DNA of 64,000 bases from Paeniglutamicibacter sp. Y32M11. GTDB lineage: Bacteria; Actinomycetota; Actinomycetes; Actinomycetales; Micrococcaceae. Shown in pieces: positions 54,905 to 61,118 of the stretch. Every line of letters starts with the position of its first letter. The first letter of the stretch is position 1. The notes under the pieces are model-generated. The model made no database searches and was not told the origin of the DNA. It saw only the letters and a program-made list of their open reading frames with translations. The stretch covers positions 2,604,001 to 2,668,000 of the forward strand of contig NZ_CP079107.1 in the NCBI RefSeq assembly GCF_019285735.1, given 5' to 3'. The translations under genes were made by a program, and so were the position numbers.

Positions 54905-55879
54905 CTAGAGTCCCGCCAGGTCGGCGGCGCCCTCGCGCAGCAGCTGTTCGGCCAATGTGATGCCCAGGGCCTGCGCGCCGTCGATGGTCAGTTGCTGCGT
55001 GGTGGCCGAGCGGCGCATGGTGTCCGAACCATCGGGGTTGCACGCCACCGAGTCGAGTACCAGCGTGTCCCCGTGCACCGTGGCCAGCGCACCAATGGGC
55101 GCCGCGCAGCCGGCCTCAAGCCGAGCCAACAGCGCGCGTTCGGCGGTGACCGCCAGGCGCGTGTCGAAATCGTCCATGGTTTCCAGCGCCGTGTCGACGG
55201 ACGGATGTCCGCTGCCGGCCTCACGAACCTCCACGGCCAGCGAGCCTTGCCCGGGGGCCGGAAGCATGATCTCCGGGTCCAGGTACTCGGTGATGTGTGA
55301 ATCCAGGCCCAGACGCTCCAGACCGGCGGCGGCCAGGACGACAGCGTCCAGGTCGCCCTGGGCGGTGCGCCCGACTCCCCCATCGTCCTTTTGCGCCGGT
55401 GAGCCCTTGACCCGGCCCAGGCGGGTTCCGACGTTGCCGCGGATATCCACGATTTTCAGATCGGGGCGGAAGGCCAACAGTTGGGCCTTGCGGCGCGGGG
55501 AACCGGTGCCCACCGTTGCCCCTTCGGGCAGCTCGGCCAGGAACAAGCCGTCGCGGGCGCACAGGGCGTCGCGCACATCCGCTCGCTGCGGGGTCGCGGC
55601 AATGATCAACCCGTCGGGCTGCGTGGTGGGCAGGTCCTTGAGCGAATGCACGGCCATGTCACAACTGCCATCCAACAACGCCTGACGCAGGGCGGCGGCA
55701 AATACGCCGGTGCCGCCGAGCTGGGACAGTGGACCGGTGGTCACATCCCCCTCGGTTTTCACCAGCACGGTGTTATAGGGGACCTGGGAGATCTCGTGCA
55801 ATTGCACCGCGACGTGCCCGGTTTGGGTGGTGGCCAGCGCCGAGCCACGAGTACCGATGCTGAACTCGTGCTGCGTCAT
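54905..55879 (-). CDS. hemC: Hydroxymethylbilane synthase (porphobilinogen deaminase)
   Basis: Enzyme of 324 residues that links four porphobilinogens. The cofactor Cys sits in LEAGCAAPIGALA. GTRGSALATTQT near the N terminus and GTGSPRRKAQLLAFRPDL and DIRGNVGTRLGRV bind substrate carboxylates. ATG at 55879 overlaps the cpfC stop by four bases. Confidence 0.95.
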   Translation of the reverse strand: MTQHEFSIGTRGSALATTQTGHVAVQLHEISQVPYNTVLVKTEGDVTTGPLSQLGGTGVFAAALRQALLDGSCDMAVHSLKDLPTTQPDGLIIAATPQRADVRDALCARDGLFLAELPEGATVGTGSPRRKAQLLAFRPDLKIVDIRGNVGTRLGRVKGSPAQKDDGGVGRTAQGDLDAVVLAAAGLERLGLDSHITEYLDPEIMLPAPGQGSLAVEVREAGSGHPSVDTALETMDDFDTRLAVTAERALLARLEAGCAAPIGALATVHGDTLVLDSVACNPDGSDTMRRSATTQQLTIDGAQALGITLAEQLLREGAADLAGL

Positions 55880-57081
55880 GATGCCGGCACCCCCACCTCG
55901 GAGTCGACGGCGGCGATGGTCGGCTTGACGCTGCCATCACGCATCACCTTGGCACAGCAATTCGGCCGGCACACATCAAACCATGGACCGAGCTCGGCCA
56001 CCGAGGCGCGGCCGGGCTTCAGCGCGGCACCGTCGGACCCGGCCAGGCGCTCGGCCACCAGGTCGACCATGCCGGAGACGAAGTCCGTGTGGGTTCCCGG
56101 GGTCGGGGCGCGGTGGAACGCCAGGCCGAGTTCGGCGCAGGTTTCCCTCGCCTCGGTGTCCAGGTCCCAGAGGACCTCCATGTGATCCGAGACGAAGCCG
56201 ATGGGCATCACCACGACCCCGGCGACGCCGGCGGCCTGGTACTCCGTGAGCGCGTCGTTGATGTCCGGTTCCAGCCACGGCACGTGCGGGGCCCCGGAAC
56301 GCGATTGGAAGACCAGGGAGTGCGACAGGCCGGCAGCCTCGGGCACCCCAGCCAGGATCGCGTCGGCCACGGCCAGGTGCTGGGCCGAGTACAGGTCGGT
56401 ATCCAGCGTGGCCACGAGGTCGCGCGGGCCGGCGGCCTGCGCGTCGGAGGTCGGGATCGAGTGCGTCACGAAGACGATCTTGATCTCGCCCTGCGGGTTG
56501 CCGGCCGCCGCCAGCTGCGCCCGGACCTCGGCCAGCGAATCGCGCAGCCCGCCCATGAACGGGGTCACGAACCCGGGGGTGTCGAAGTACTGGCGCACCT
56601 TGTCAACCTCGAGCTTGCCCTCCAGGCCGGTTTCGCGCAGCGCGACGCCCAGGTCCTCGCGGTATTGCCGGCAGGAAGAGTAGCCGGAATAGGCGCTGGT
56701 GGAGAGCATCAGCACCTTACGGTGTCCCGCGTTGTAGATCTCGGTGATGGTTTCCGGGATGTAGGGCGCCCAGTTGCGGTTGCCCCAGTAGATCGGAACC
56801 CCGATCTCCCGCGCAGCCAGCTCGGCCTCCAGGGCGGCCTTCAGCGCGCGGTTCTGCGCATTGATCGGGGACACACCACCGTTTTTGCGGTAGTGCACCG
56901 CCACCTCTTCGAGGCGCTCGTCGGGGATGCCGCGCCCCTTCGTGACGTTGCGCAGGAAGGGGAGGACGTCCTCCTGTCCCTCCGGTCCGCCGAAGGAGGC
57001 CAGCAGGATGGCGTCATAGGCCTTCGGGGCCATGACCCCGGAGTCGTCGTACCCGGTGCGCGGGTCGAAAGCCTGGCTCAT
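55876..57081 (-). CDS. cpfC: Coproporphyrin ferrochelatase
   Basis: Protein of 401 residues inserting Fe2+ into coproporphyrin III in the Gram-positive haem route. Catalytic His in FVTHSIPTSD and Glu in SDHMEVLWDLDTEA. The cysteines for a [2Fe-2S] cluster of the actinobacterial type are visible: SSCRQYRED and the C-terminal CRPNCC. Older name hemH. Overlaps the chdC stop by four bases. Confidence 0.95.
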   Translation of the reverse strand: MSQAFDPRTGYDDSGVMAPKAYDAILLASFGGPEGQEDVLPFLRNVTKGRGIPDERLEEVAVHYRKNGGVSPINAQNRALKAALEAELAAREIGVPIYWGNRNWAPYIPETITEIYNAGHRKVLMLSTSAYSGYSSCRQYREDLGVALRETGLEGKLEVDKVRQYFDTPGFVTPFMGGLRDSLAEVRAQLAAAGNPQGEIKIVFVTHSIPTSDAQAAGPRDLVATLDTDLYSAQHLAVADAILAGVPEAAGLSHSLVFQSRSGAPHVPWLEPDINDALTEYQAAGVAGVVVMPIGFVSDHMEVLWDLDTEARETCAELGLAFHRAPTPGTHTDFVSGMVDLVAERLAGSDGAALKPGRASVAELGPWFDVCRPNCCAKVMRDGSVKPTIAAVDSEVGVPAS

Positions 57082-57791
57082 CGCAGGACCTCGGCGACCT
57101 CGGCCGTGGAGATGCGGCGGCCGGTGTAGAACGGGGTTTCTTCACGCACGTGGTTGCGGGCCTCGGTGTAGCGCAGGTGGCGCATCATGTCGACCAGATC
57201 GATCATTTCCGGGGCTTCGAGGCAAATCTGCCATTCGAAGTCGCTGAAGGAGAAGGCTGCGACGGTGTTGGCCAGCACGGTCGGGAATTCGCGACCCAGG
57301 ATGCCGTGATCGCGCAGCATCTTGCCGCGCTCCTTGGGGTCCAGCAGGTACCAATCGTTGGATCGCACAAACGGGTAGACGGTCATCCAGGTTTCCGGGG
57401 CCACACCGCGGGCGAAGGCCGGGGAGTGATCCTTGGCAAATTCTGCCTCGCGGTGCACGCCCATGGTGGAGTACACGATGGAGGTTTCGGCGAAGAGGAA
57501 GGAGCGCCGAATCTTGCGCACCGCTGCCTGCAATCCCTCGGCGGTCGGGCCGTGGACCCAGGTCATCACGTCGGCGTCTTCGCGCATGGCCGAGACGTCG
57601 TAGGTGCCGCGCAGCGTCACGCCGTCTTGTGCCAGCTCGGCCACCAACGCGTCAAAGGCCTCGACACCCTCGGTGCGGTCCAGATCCGAATCGCGCTTGA
57701 AGATGGTCCACAGGGTGAAGTACATGGTGGCGTCGGTACCGGCTGCTTCACGGTCGCGGATGACGGGTGAGTTGGATTCCACTGCACTCAT
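57078..57791 (-). CDS. chdC: Coproheme decarboxylase
   Basis: Chlorite-dismutase-fold enzyme of 237 residues (also hemQ) that converts iron coproporphyrin III to haem b with peroxide, the last step. The catalytic Tyr is in MTVYPFVRSNDWYLL; the proximal haem His probably lies in the next region (LRDHGILG). CAGGAG precedes the ATG. Its presence with cpfC proves that the coproporphyrin-dependent branch is used. Confidence 0.94.
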   Translation of the reverse strand: MSAVESNSPVIRDREAAGTDATMYFTLWTIFKRDSDLDRTEGVEAFDALVAELAQDGVTLRGTYDVSAMREDADVMTWVHGPTAEGLQAAVRKIRRSFLFAETSIVYSTMGVHREAEFAKDHSPAFARGVAPETWMTVYPFVRSNDWYLLDPKERGKMLRDHGILGREFPTVLANTVAAFSFSDFEWQICLEAPEMIDLVDMMRHLRYTEARNHVREETPFYTGRRISTAEVAEVLR

Positions 57792-57947: not shown

Positions 57948-59936
57948 TCAGCTCACGGTGATGCGCAGTTTCTTGCGTGTATCGCCCACCACCGCGGCAA
58001 GACCGGTGCCCGAGAGCCAGGCACCGACGACATCCAGCCCCGGGTGGGTGGCGGCGATGGCACGGATTTGCGCCACACGCCGGGCATGTCCGGTGGTGGC
58101 GAAGGGCAGTGCGCCGGAGTAGCGAATCACGTCAAAGCCCAAGAGGTCTTCGGCGGTGATCACCATGCCCAGCAGCGCCGAGGCGTCCTTCAGCGCCGCA
58201 TCACGCAGCGTGCGATCATCGGCATTAACCAACGCAGAGGCCATATCGTTCAACCGCCCGTAGGACAGGCGCAAGACGTGGGTACCGGGACCGGATTCGT
58301 CACCCAACCACTGCCATTTGGCCGTGGCATGGGTCAGTGCCTTGGCGCCGATGTTATTGACGCTGGGCGAGACCAGCAGGCCGGTGCCACGCGGGGCATC
58401 ATCCAGCTCGGGTTTATCCAGCACCAGGGTGACCAGCGATATGCCGGCTCCGGTGCTCGGCCGGTGCTCGGTGAACGCCCGATCAATCCCGCTCAGAAGC
58501 TCAACGGCCAGTTCACCGCCGGTGGCAACCACCACGCGGTCAACCTGCAGCTGCGTGCCCGCTTCGGTGTGGGTGGCTGACTCACCGAGGGTGACCCGGA
58601 AACCGGTGGAGTGCTCCCCCGGCGTTATGGCGGCGATGGGGCTGTTGGTTTTCAGTTCAACACCGGCGGCACGCAGATCCGCGATAAGGGCGGCGGTGAG
58701 CCGGTTCATGCCTCCGCGGACGGAGGCGACGGCGGAACCGGCGGGTGCGGCGGCGCGCTGGGCGGCAACGGCCTTGGCCAGCGAACCGTGCTTCAGCACC
58801 GCTGCGCGCAGCCCCGGGGCGATGGCATCAACGTCGAGAGTATCGGGATCCGCCGAATGCACCCCTGACACGACGGGGGTGACCAGGTTCTCCAATACCG
58901 CCGAGCCCATCCGGGAGCGGACCAGGGCACCGAGGGACATCTCGCCCTCAAGAATCTTTTTGGACACCGGGGTGATCAGATCCGCCGCGGCACGTAGCGC
59001 ACCGCTGCGGCCCACCGCCGTGCGGACCTCATCGGCCCACGGGTCCCCGGGGATCCCCAGGATGCCGGTGGCCGGAAGTGGCTGGGCCACGTTGTCGTGC
59101 CCGCGTTTGAGATACAGCCAGGCTCCCCCGGGTTCGGGGGTGACGATGTCCTCCCCCAGGCCGAGTTCGACCAGCAATTGTGCGACGGCGGCGGAGCGGG
59201 TGGCGAAGGATTCGGCGCCGGCGTCAAGGCTCAGCCCGGCGACCTGGTGCTCGGTGACGCAGCCACCAAAGTGTCCCTGCGCCTCGTGGACCACCACCCG
59301 GTGACCACTCATGACCAGTTCGCGGGCGGCCACCAATCCGGAGATGCCACCGCCGATGACCACAGCCAGCGGTCCGCTCGGTGCCGCCGGGGCGGCAGCG
59401 GCGGTGGCCTCGGCACCACGAGCCCGGTGCAGCAAGCGCATCGCGTGGGCAGCGGCGTTTGAGCCCACCGGGCTTCGGCGTGCCTTAGTTGCCGGAGCCT
59501 CGGTGCTCGGCGCACCGTCTGGGCTCGGTGCTGCTTCGGGGGTCCGGACACCGCCGAAGGTTGGCTCCGGCTGCGGGGCTACCCTCGCCGCTTCGCTGGC
59601 CACACGTGACTCGGCGTAATCTGGTGTGCTGGTTGAGGCTTCGGTGCCGCGCTCGGACGGGTGGGTGGCACCGGTTTCGGCACCTCGGGCGCGGTTGAGC
59701 AGGCGCAGGGCGTGAGCCGCGGCGTTCGACCCGACGCTCGCGACTCGACCGCGTGCCACCGAGGCAACGGCTGGCTCATTTTCACCGGTGAAGGTGATGA
59801 CCGCGTCTTCTTCGGTCCCACCAGGTGCGGTGCTCGGGCCAGCTAGCGATTCGGGGTCCTTCGCGGGATCCCCCGGCACACCTGCAGGGTCGGCCGACTC
59901 GCGGTTTGGCTGACCTTGGATCTTAGGCACCATCAT
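57948..59936 (-). CDS. cgoX: Coproporphyrinogen III oxidase (HemY type) with a long N-terminal extension
   Basis: FAD enzyme of 662 residues, well above the usual 450-490. The oxidase starts near residue 189 with the dinucleotide motif AVVIGGGISGLVAARELV and continues with DAGAESFATRSAAV and, at the end, VVGAWLSGTGLAAVVGD. Residues 1 to about 188 are a Pro/Ala/Glu-rich extension holding two copies of an Arg-rich helix-like motif (68-87 and 157-176). In the pathway it oxidises coproporphyrinogen III to coproporphyrin III. Start ATG at 59936 or the next codon, behind AGGGAAAAGAG. A start at Met166 would drop the extension, but the strong repeat argues that it is translated. Confidence 0.9.
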   Translation of the reverse strand: MMVPKIQGQPNRESADPAGVPGDPAKDPESLAGPSTAPGGTEEDAVITFTGENEPAVASVARGRVASVGSNAAAHALRLLNRARGAETGATHPSERGTEASTSTPDYAESRVASEAARVAPQPEPTFGGVRTPEAAPSPDGAPSTEAPATKARRSPVGSNAAAHAMRLLHRARGAEATAAAAPAAPSGPLAVVIGGGISGLVAARELVMSGHRVVVHEAQGHFGGCVTEHQVAGLSLDAGAESFATRSAAVAQLLVELGLGEDIVTPEPGGAWLYLKRGHDNVAQPLPATGILGIPGDPWADEVRTAVGRSGALRAAADLITPVSKKILEGEMSLGALVRSRMGSAVLENLVTPVVSGVHSADPDTLDVDAIAPGLRAAVLKHGSLAKAVAAQRAAAPAGSAVASVRGGMNRLTAALIADLRAAGVELKTNSPIAAITPGEHSTGFRVTLGESATHTEAGTQLQVDRVVVATGGELAVELLSGIDRAFTEHRPSTGAGISLVTLVLDKPELDDAPRGTGLLVSPSVNNIGAKALTHATAKWQWLGDESGPGTHVLRLSYGRLNDMASALVNADDRTLRDAALKDASALLGMVITAEDLLGFDVIRYSGALPFATTGHARRVAQIRAIAATHPGLDVVGAWLSGTGLAAVVGDTRKKLRITVS
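59409..59468 (-). repeat. CgoX extension motif, copy 2
   Basis: Encodes VGSNAAAHAMRLLHRARGAE (residues 157-176), directly before the FAD domain. It matches copy 1 at all but two of 20 positions (Leu/Met and Asn/His). The DNA differs at several third positions, so selection seems to keep the protein sequence. Confidence 0.85.
59676..59735 (-). repeat. CgoX extension motif, copy 1
   Basis: Encodes VGSNAAAHALRLLNRARGAE (residues 68-87), 69 residues before copy 2. Ala, Leu and Arg spacing predicts an amphipathic basic helix. Confidence 0.85.
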
Positions 59937-59973
59937 CTCTTTTCAGGGAAAACGAACGTGGAACGTGCTTCCG

Positions 59974-60047: not shown

Positions 60048-61118
60048 TTAACGCCCGGCCACGGGGATCGAGTGAATAAGTTCGACCAAACGGGTCAGCG
60101 TCTCGGGGTTGGTCTCCGGCGGGACACCGTGACCCAGGTTCGCCACGTGTGAGACGGCGGTGTCCCCGGCGGCCAGCACCTCGCGCACGTGCGCCTCGAG
60201 GACCTCCCACGGTGCGGTGAGCAGGGCCGGGTCGATGTTGCCCTGCAGCGGGATGTTCCCGCCCAGCCGACGATTGGCCTCATCCAGCGGCAACCGGTAG
60301 TCAACGCCCATGACGTCGACTCCCACATCGCGCATGGCACCGAGCAACTCGGAGGTGCCGGTGCCAAAGTGCACCAGCGGGACGCCGGTGTCTCGAACGT
60401 GATCCAGCGCGCGGGCCGAGGCCGGAGCGACGAAGTTGGTGTAGTCGCCCAGCGAGAGCGAACCGGCCCAGGAGTCAAAGAGCTGTCCGGCGGAGGCACC
60501 TGCCTCGATCTGGGCGCGCAGGAAGGCCCCGGAGGCGTCGGCGGCCCAGTTGGCCAGTTCTTCCCAGACTCCCGGCTGCGCGTGCATCATGGTGCGCGGG
60601 CCCATGTGGTCGCGGGACGGACGTCCCTCCACCATGTAAGCGGCAACGGTGAACGGGGCACCGGCAAATCCGATCAGCGGCGTATTGCCCAGCTGCTCAA
60701 CGGTCATGGAGACGGCCTCGCGAATCGGGTCCAGCGCCGCATCATCCATCTTAGGTAGTGCACGCACGTCGGCGGCGGTGCGCACCGGGGAGGCAAGGAC
60801 CGGACCGACGCCCGGAACAATGTCCACGTCGATGCCGGCCAGCTTGAGCGGGATGACGATGTCGGAGAAAAAGATCCCGGCATCCACATCGTGCCGGCGG
60901 ACCGGCTGCAAGGTGATTTCCGAGGCCATGTCCGGGCGCAGGCAGGATTCAAGCATCTCGGTGCCCTCGCGTAGCTTGCGGTATTCGGGCAGCGAACGGC
61001 CCGCCTGGCGCATGAACCATACGGGCCTGCGGCTGGGCTTTAGGCCGCGGTAGGCGGAAATCAACGGGGAATTGGCGGTACGACCGTCCATCAGCGGGTG
61101 GTTCTGGCTCAACGTCAT
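60048..61118 (-). CDS. hemE: Uroporphyrinogen decarboxylase
   Basis: Protein of 356 residues removing four carboxyls to give coproporphyrinogen III. The substrate motifs are PVWFMRQAGRSLPEYR near residue 32, FFSDIVIPLKLAG and the C-terminal NLGHGVPPETNPET. First gene of the minus-strand haem operon. A perfect 14-bp palindrome lies 13-26 bases before the ATG. Confidence 0.95.
   Translation of the reverse strand: MTLSQNHPLMDGRTANSPLISAYRGLKPSRRPVWFMRQAGRSLPEYRKLREGTEMLESCLRPDMASEITLQPVRRHDVDAGIFFSDIVIPLKLAGIDVDIVPGVGPVLASPVRTAADVRALPKMDDAALDPIREAVSMTVEQLGNTPLIGFAGAPFTVAAYMVEGRPSRDHMGPRTMMHAQPGVWEELANWAADASGAFLRAQIEAGASAGQLFDSWAGSLSLGDYTNFVAPASARALDHVRDTGVPLVHFGTGTSELLGAMRDVGVDVMGVDYRLPLDEANRRLGGNIPLQGNIDPALLTAPWEVLEAHVREVLAAGDTAVSHVANLGHGVPPETNPETLTRLVELIHSIPVAGR

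Follow-up and report, generated by a model that had tools for sequence, protein, structure and literature searches.

The CgoX protein encoded in the window (the whole stretch of 64,000 nucleotides of Paeniglutamicibacter sp. Y32M11 that was analysed) carries a long N-terminal tail with two copies of a 20-residue motif, and this tail with its motif is a real, selected and lineage-specific feature of a housekeeping enzyme. The gene, cgoX (hemY-like), is situated at 57948..59936 on the minus strand, as are all other features for which coordinates are given below. Counted from the first ATG it encodes 662 amino acids, composed of a disordered-looking extension at about residues 1-190 followed by a FAD-dependent catalytic part. 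About 190 low-complexity residues precede the FAD motif VVIGGGISGL, which begins at about residue 190. The residues A, P, G, S, T and E make up 67% of the tail, and its disorder was judged from this composition. The upstream copy of the motif, copy 1, covers residues 68-87 (59676..59735, VGSNAAAHALRLLNRARGAE), while the FAD-proximal copy 2 covers residues 157-176 (59409..59468, VGSNAAAHAMRLLHRARGAE). A linker (59469..59675) separates the two copies. The first 20 residues form a leader (59877..59936), which is MVP..EEQP-like in most of the genus.

The sequence-only reading had described two 20-mers in the CgoX frame before the FAD domain, with 18 of 20 residues identical and 69 residues between them, and this was confirmed. 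When the 190-residue extension was shuffled 200 times, the best pair of 20-mers had 11 of 20 identities or fewer (mean 8.0), against the 18 observed. The reported difference of the copies at silent sites was likewise borne out, since pS between the window copies is 0.74 and therefore saturated. The description of the motif as basic and amphipathic holds weakly: the net charge is +1 to +2 per 18 residues, and the hydrophobic moment is 0.21-0.34 per 18 residues and 0.30-0.40 in the 13-residue core, lower than in several 18-residue stretches of the enzyme itself (0.44-0.48). The motif corresponds roughly to a basic patch followed by [SN][DN]xAAHA[LM]RLLxx[AV]R. Its common core is AHA[LM]RLL...R, mostly with RR and [SN][DN] ahead. 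In a 20-row alignment from Paeniglutamicibacter and a second genus, g23, possibly Glutamicibacter, seven columns were invariant, and the alanines of the core were invariant or nearly so. All 22 genomes of these two genera have a counterpart of copy 2, and the spacing from its AHA to the FAD glycines stays at 25-37 residues in every one of them.

As judged from profile and structure matches, the catalytic part of the window protein is an ordinary CgoX (coproporphyrinogen III oxidase), an enzyme of the coproporphyrin route. TIGR00562 matched residues 192-655 with 116 bits (cut-off 97.85), and PRK11883-type models matched under their own cut-offs. The best Pfam and NCBIfam matches began at residues 191-198, and a few weak ones of other families from 172-178. 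The solved HemY-type CgoX chains of B. subtilis (3I6D, 470 aa) and Exiguobacterium sibiricum (3LOV, 475 aa) align from window residue 191 and share the FAD motif and catalytic part. These matches begin at residue 7 or 8 of the solved chains, and the motif-bearing tail of about 190 residues is extra in the window protein. HemY-type CgoX also resembles it in its place in a hemE-cgoX-chdC-cpfC cluster. In the window, hemE (UroD, 60048..61118) is the upstream neighbour and makes the CgoX substrate, chdC (hemQ, 57078..57791) is the downstream neighbour, and cpfC (hemH, 55876..57081) uses the CgoX product. The genes follow the order hemE-cgoX-chdC-cpfC with hemA divergent, and hemC, hemD, hemB and hemL, labelled by their translations alone, are placed farther downstream. 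ChdC matched NF042928 HemQ_actino with 310 bits (cut-off 235) and CpfC matched the ferrochelatase model NF000689 with 450 bits (cut-off 408); the presence of both in the genome marks the coproporphyrin route. The hem gene order was identical in all 11 compared loci, with or without the motif.

Both CgoX and the motif were found in all 15 Paeniglutamicibacter genomes examined, which disposes of the earlier concern that the motif might be absent from close relatives. At E 1e-30 or better, CgoX was detected in 148 of 149 family genomes, 8 of them from Paeniglutamicibacter. CgoX regions were compared in 100 of the 140 family genomes outside Paeniglutamicibacter. The core AHA.RLL was present in all seven sampled g23 genomes and absent from the other 93 compared family CgoX tails, including those of the nearest further genera, Zafaria and Zhihengliuella among them, which counts against the sequence-only interpretation. 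A two-genus profile gave E 2.7e-12 or better for the seven g23 proteins against 0.048 or worse for the other 93. Because 93 of these 100 CgoX proteins lack the motif, the pathway does not need it. A profile of the first genus, scanned over the 149 family genomes, found no credible bearer beyond Paeniglutamicibacter and g23; scans of this type can miss weak bearers, as this one missed the degenerate motif of G149. That g23 locus (L160) retains little beyond the core AHALRLL..VR and represents a natural degenerate form.

Within the 15 Paeniglutamicibacter genomes, no protein other than CgoX fell below E 0.004. Among the weak matches of the genus and family scans that were inspected, namely L050, L060 and L063-L072, L064-L067 were g23 CgoX. 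L068 was a frame of 54 residues that overlaps another gene, and L063 agrees with it in frame length and match range. With the two-genus profile, no convincing bearer emerged from 396 genomes sampled across the order and 396 across the phylum, among the at most 19 candidates scored per genome. Ten of the 18 weak loci from these samples were inspected and rejected: L203 (E 5.4e-4) resembles an ABC transporter, and the rest look like overlapping or unrelated frames. The other eight had E 0.012 or worse. A profile search of the PDB with the motif gave a designed protein (E 0.55) as its sole match.

Copy number varies among the bearers. Two copies were observed in 4 of the 22 motif-bearing genomes (G000, G014, G003 and G005), with a copy period of 81-90 residues in all four, and a single copy in the other 11 Paeniglutamicibacter genomes and in all seven of g23. 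Conservation of both copies across genera, which the sequence-only reading had looked to as support, was not found, as only these 4 of the 22 genomes have two copies. The pS between copies was 0.39 in L084 and 0.17 in G005, compared with the 0.74 of the window. Since the divergence between copies differs in this way and the proteins nearest to that of G005 in the CgoX tree are single-copy, at least two duplications have taken place.

The pattern of substitutions showed that the motif is kept by selection as protein. Pooled over five pairs of relatives, which are not all independent as L087 was used twice, pN/pS was 0.16 in the motif, 0.56 in the other tail and 0.23 in the enzyme. The motif is a short segment more conserved than its disordered-looking surroundings (0.16 against 0.56), and on account of these three values the extension is not an annotation artefact. 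One pair, L085-L090, had 6 non-synonymous against 4 synonymous changes within the motif, unlike the pooled trend. Between the window and P. terrestris (L083), dN/dS was 0 in the first 20 residues, where no amino acid has changed, 0 in copy 1, 0.065 in copy 2 and 0.109 in the catalytic part, while the fast-evolving linker reached about 0.5 over residues 88-148.

By all signs in the compared sequences, the tail is translated. Three start codons are consecutive, ATG at 59936, ATG at 59933 and GTG at 59930, making the start uncertain by one or two codons, and comparison with relatives makes the second or third of them likelier. A weak ribosome-binding-site-like AAAAGAG is positioned just ahead (59937..59943). 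All seven parsed named motif-bearing relatives have AAAAGAG or GGAAGAG just ahead of the far start, a count which leaves out L083, L084 and L085. The contrary explanation, that the annotated start codon is wrong and the extension never translated, could draw on the other family CgoX proteins with a recognised ribosome-binding-like site, which mostly have their start 8-38 residues ahead of the FAD motif, apart from a few outliers, although many family rows in this survey have no recognised site. It could also draw on an ATG inside the motif, common to many relatives. However, this ATG has no ribosome-binding-like site, and a Leu codon takes its place in copy 1 as well as in g23 and some members of the genus. 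Purifying selection on the amino acids extends upstream of it, and the reading frames of several relatives open only shortly ahead of the far start. Together with the sites before the far start, these observations make a wrong start codon very improbable, and nothing in them favours a translation start near residue 166-189, which the sequence-only reading had named as a result that would overturn its claim.

The motif probably arose once, in the common ancestor of Paeniglutamicibacter and g23; this origin is the likeliest and simplest because rpoB makes both genera neighbours. In the rpoB tree, the grouping of g23 with four of the five sampled Paeniglutamicibacter had a support of 99/99, and the grouping with all five one of 62/93. 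The CgoX trees (one of 113 rows, which leaves out two Paeniglutamicibacter loci, and one of 58 rows) and a four-gene haem tree placed g23 apart from Paeniglutamicibacter, and long branches and unusual composition were flagged for g23 in the CgoX trees. The ChdC tree united both genera (100/98). When FastTree was run per gene, ChdC again united them (0.995) and HemC grouped g23 with 13 of 14 Paeniglutamicibacter rows (0.898), while HemE, CgoX, CpfC, HemD and HemA did not unite them. The hem gene trees of g23 (L221-L224, L243-L245) are in conflict, with ChdC and HemC agreeing with rpoB and HemE, CpfC, HemA and CgoX disagreeing; fast evolution or single-gene exchange within the cluster could explain this. 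Six ChdC residues were common to Paeniglutamicibacter and g23 and rare elsewhere (0-3%). In the control, g23 shared at most two such residues with any other genus of at least two loci, and Paeniglutamicibacter also shared six with g21. The lead towards ChdC as the motif partner, which came from this tree and these residues, was given up because rpoB also unites both genera, so that common descent suffices.

Our preferred reading, held tentatively and at slightly less than an even chance, is that CgoX uses the tail motif to dock on another protein, most probably one of the enzymes in its own pathway. The tail would act as a flexible tether which presents a short helical docking motif; the letters of the motif suit a helix, as far as its residues can tell, and it would fold upon binding to a protein surface. 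The tether would keep CgoX close to the partner, and a second copy of the motif might increase avidity. The most likely partner would be a coproporphyrin-pathway enzyme encoded alongside CgoX in the cluster, namely UroD, CpfC or ChdC, and reactive coproporphyrinogen or phototoxic coproporphyrin could thereby be passed on locally. The combination of a short and constrained motif, a fast-evolving low-complexity tether, a variable copy number and a maintained proximal distance is the pattern of a docking motif, and the conservation of alanines in the core fits tight packing on a protein. A more far-reaching proposal, which appears unlikely but deserves mention, is that the motif is an in-built assembly signal which brings CgoX to an oligomeric haem enzyme, was gained once and was tuned by repeated duplication, and that repeated tails of other kinds may have arisen for this task in other genera, such as the LHLP-type repeat in one g28 genome. 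Such a signal would be, to our knowledge, the first in the coproporphyrin pathway.

The strongest rival to partner docking is docking in cis, in which the proximal helix packs on the FAD or substrate-binding domain of CgoX itself and acts as a lid, stabilises the enzyme or contributes to dimer contacts. The narrow spacing of the proximal copy to the FAD glycines in all 22 genomes favours it, as do four CgoX residues common to both genera and rare elsewhere, three of which fall within a span of six positions in the catalytic part (T135, K139 and K140), but a total of four is close to the control noise of up to three. The upstream copy, 87-89 residues farther out, is equally conserved in the window lineage although a single cis site would not need it, and the catalytic part is of similar length in the nearest motif-less genera. 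Docking in cis is considered rather unlikely. A further alternative would place the motif as an amphipathic helix on the inner membrane with its basic residues towards the lipid head groups, in line with the basic patch ahead of the motif and its net positive charge. Lipid-binding helices tolerate swaps among hydrophobic residues, whereas the A, H, R and L positions of the motif are invariant, and the low hydrophobic moment of 0.21-0.34 over 18 residues may also tell against such a helix. PgoX is membrane-associated in most eukaryotes studied according to the available part of PMC10740692, but CgoX is described as soluble in the same text and in that of PMC10991733. A membrane role is thus weakly disfavoured, and an anchor of this kind seems improbable.

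A role in turnover or regulation, with the motif read by a protease adaptor or binding haem or porphyrin through its invariant His and Arg to tune CgoX, is judged as little probable as the membrane anchor, or marginally less so. Haem-regulatory elements are recognised by Cys-Pro, which the motif does not contain; one His in a helix this short speaks only weakly for haem binding, and no other haem enzyme with the motif was found in the 15 Paeniglutamicibacter genomes. Loading of CgoX as cargo into an encapsulin or another compartment is the least credible explanation and can be regarded as extremely improbable. Some encapsulin cargoes do have short conserved motifs in disordered tails, and those of family 2 encapsulins, which are N-terminal, resemble the CgoX tail in both respects. 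Unlike in such systems, no second motif-bearing protein was found in the 15 Paeniglutamicibacter genomes, and the family 1 shell gene (PF04454), present in 25 of 149 family genomes, was absent from the 8 Paeniglutamicibacter and 7 g23 genomes of the sample, so that family 1 cargo is largely refuted in the 15 sampled genomes of both genera. The family 2A model NF041162 matched none of 15 genomes, and its control was silent as well.

Enzymes with helical short linear motifs in disordered tails form a known general class. The CgoX tail resembles such tails in its short conserved motif, low-complexity tether and change in copy number. In the coproporphyrin pathway itself, the available part of PMC10427985 reports that Cutibacterium acnes fuses ChdC to CpfC. 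This fusion physically couples late enzymes through a presumably flexible linker and is in this respect like the proposed CgoX tether, but it joins two enzymes other than CgoX covalently, compared with a short putative docking motif on CgoX here. The enzymes of the pathway are soluble and protein-protein contacts between them are expected, according to the available part of PMC10991733; in the accessible text of this paper and of PMC10427985, such contacts are described as little known. The accessible portion of the interaction table in PMC10991733 contains CpfC-ChdC and a few other pairs, with no CgoX partner in that portion. The literature searched on N-terminal extensions of CgoX/HemY, haem synthesis in Paeniglutamicibacter, substrate channeling and the motif letters, with most subscription journals outside its reach, contained no description of the tail. 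The tail touches the wider question of how reactive, phototoxic intermediates pass between the soluble enzymes of the coproporphyrin pathway. A 20-residue motif that is constrained about as much as the enzyme, and exists in natural one- and two-copy forms, offers a ready bait and a clean target for mutation, and the degenerate motif of G149 is useful for learning which residues matter.

Some features of CgoX in other lineages were also observed. The short CgoX leader of Zafaria (L092/L101), MPHRNALQQGLHHGLERLRPGH, may be a decayed or parallel motif, and is not recognised by the two-genus profile. An MPHR start of CgoX is common to several genera. Within the catalytic part, 9 of 11 aligned Paeniglutamicibacter CgoX proteins (L084-L091 and L096) possess 22-50 additional residues at alignment columns 501-590, a charged stretch that is histidine-rich in some of them, which the window protein and that of P. 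terrestris (L083) do not have. The CgoX tail of L135 (G089, genus g28) contains a repeat of another kind, with units of about five residues (LHLPD, LHLSD, LRLPD and LKLPD), and those of L186 (G041) and L127 (G042) have double or single LHLP-like elements. Other genera may have evolved repeated CgoX tails of their own.
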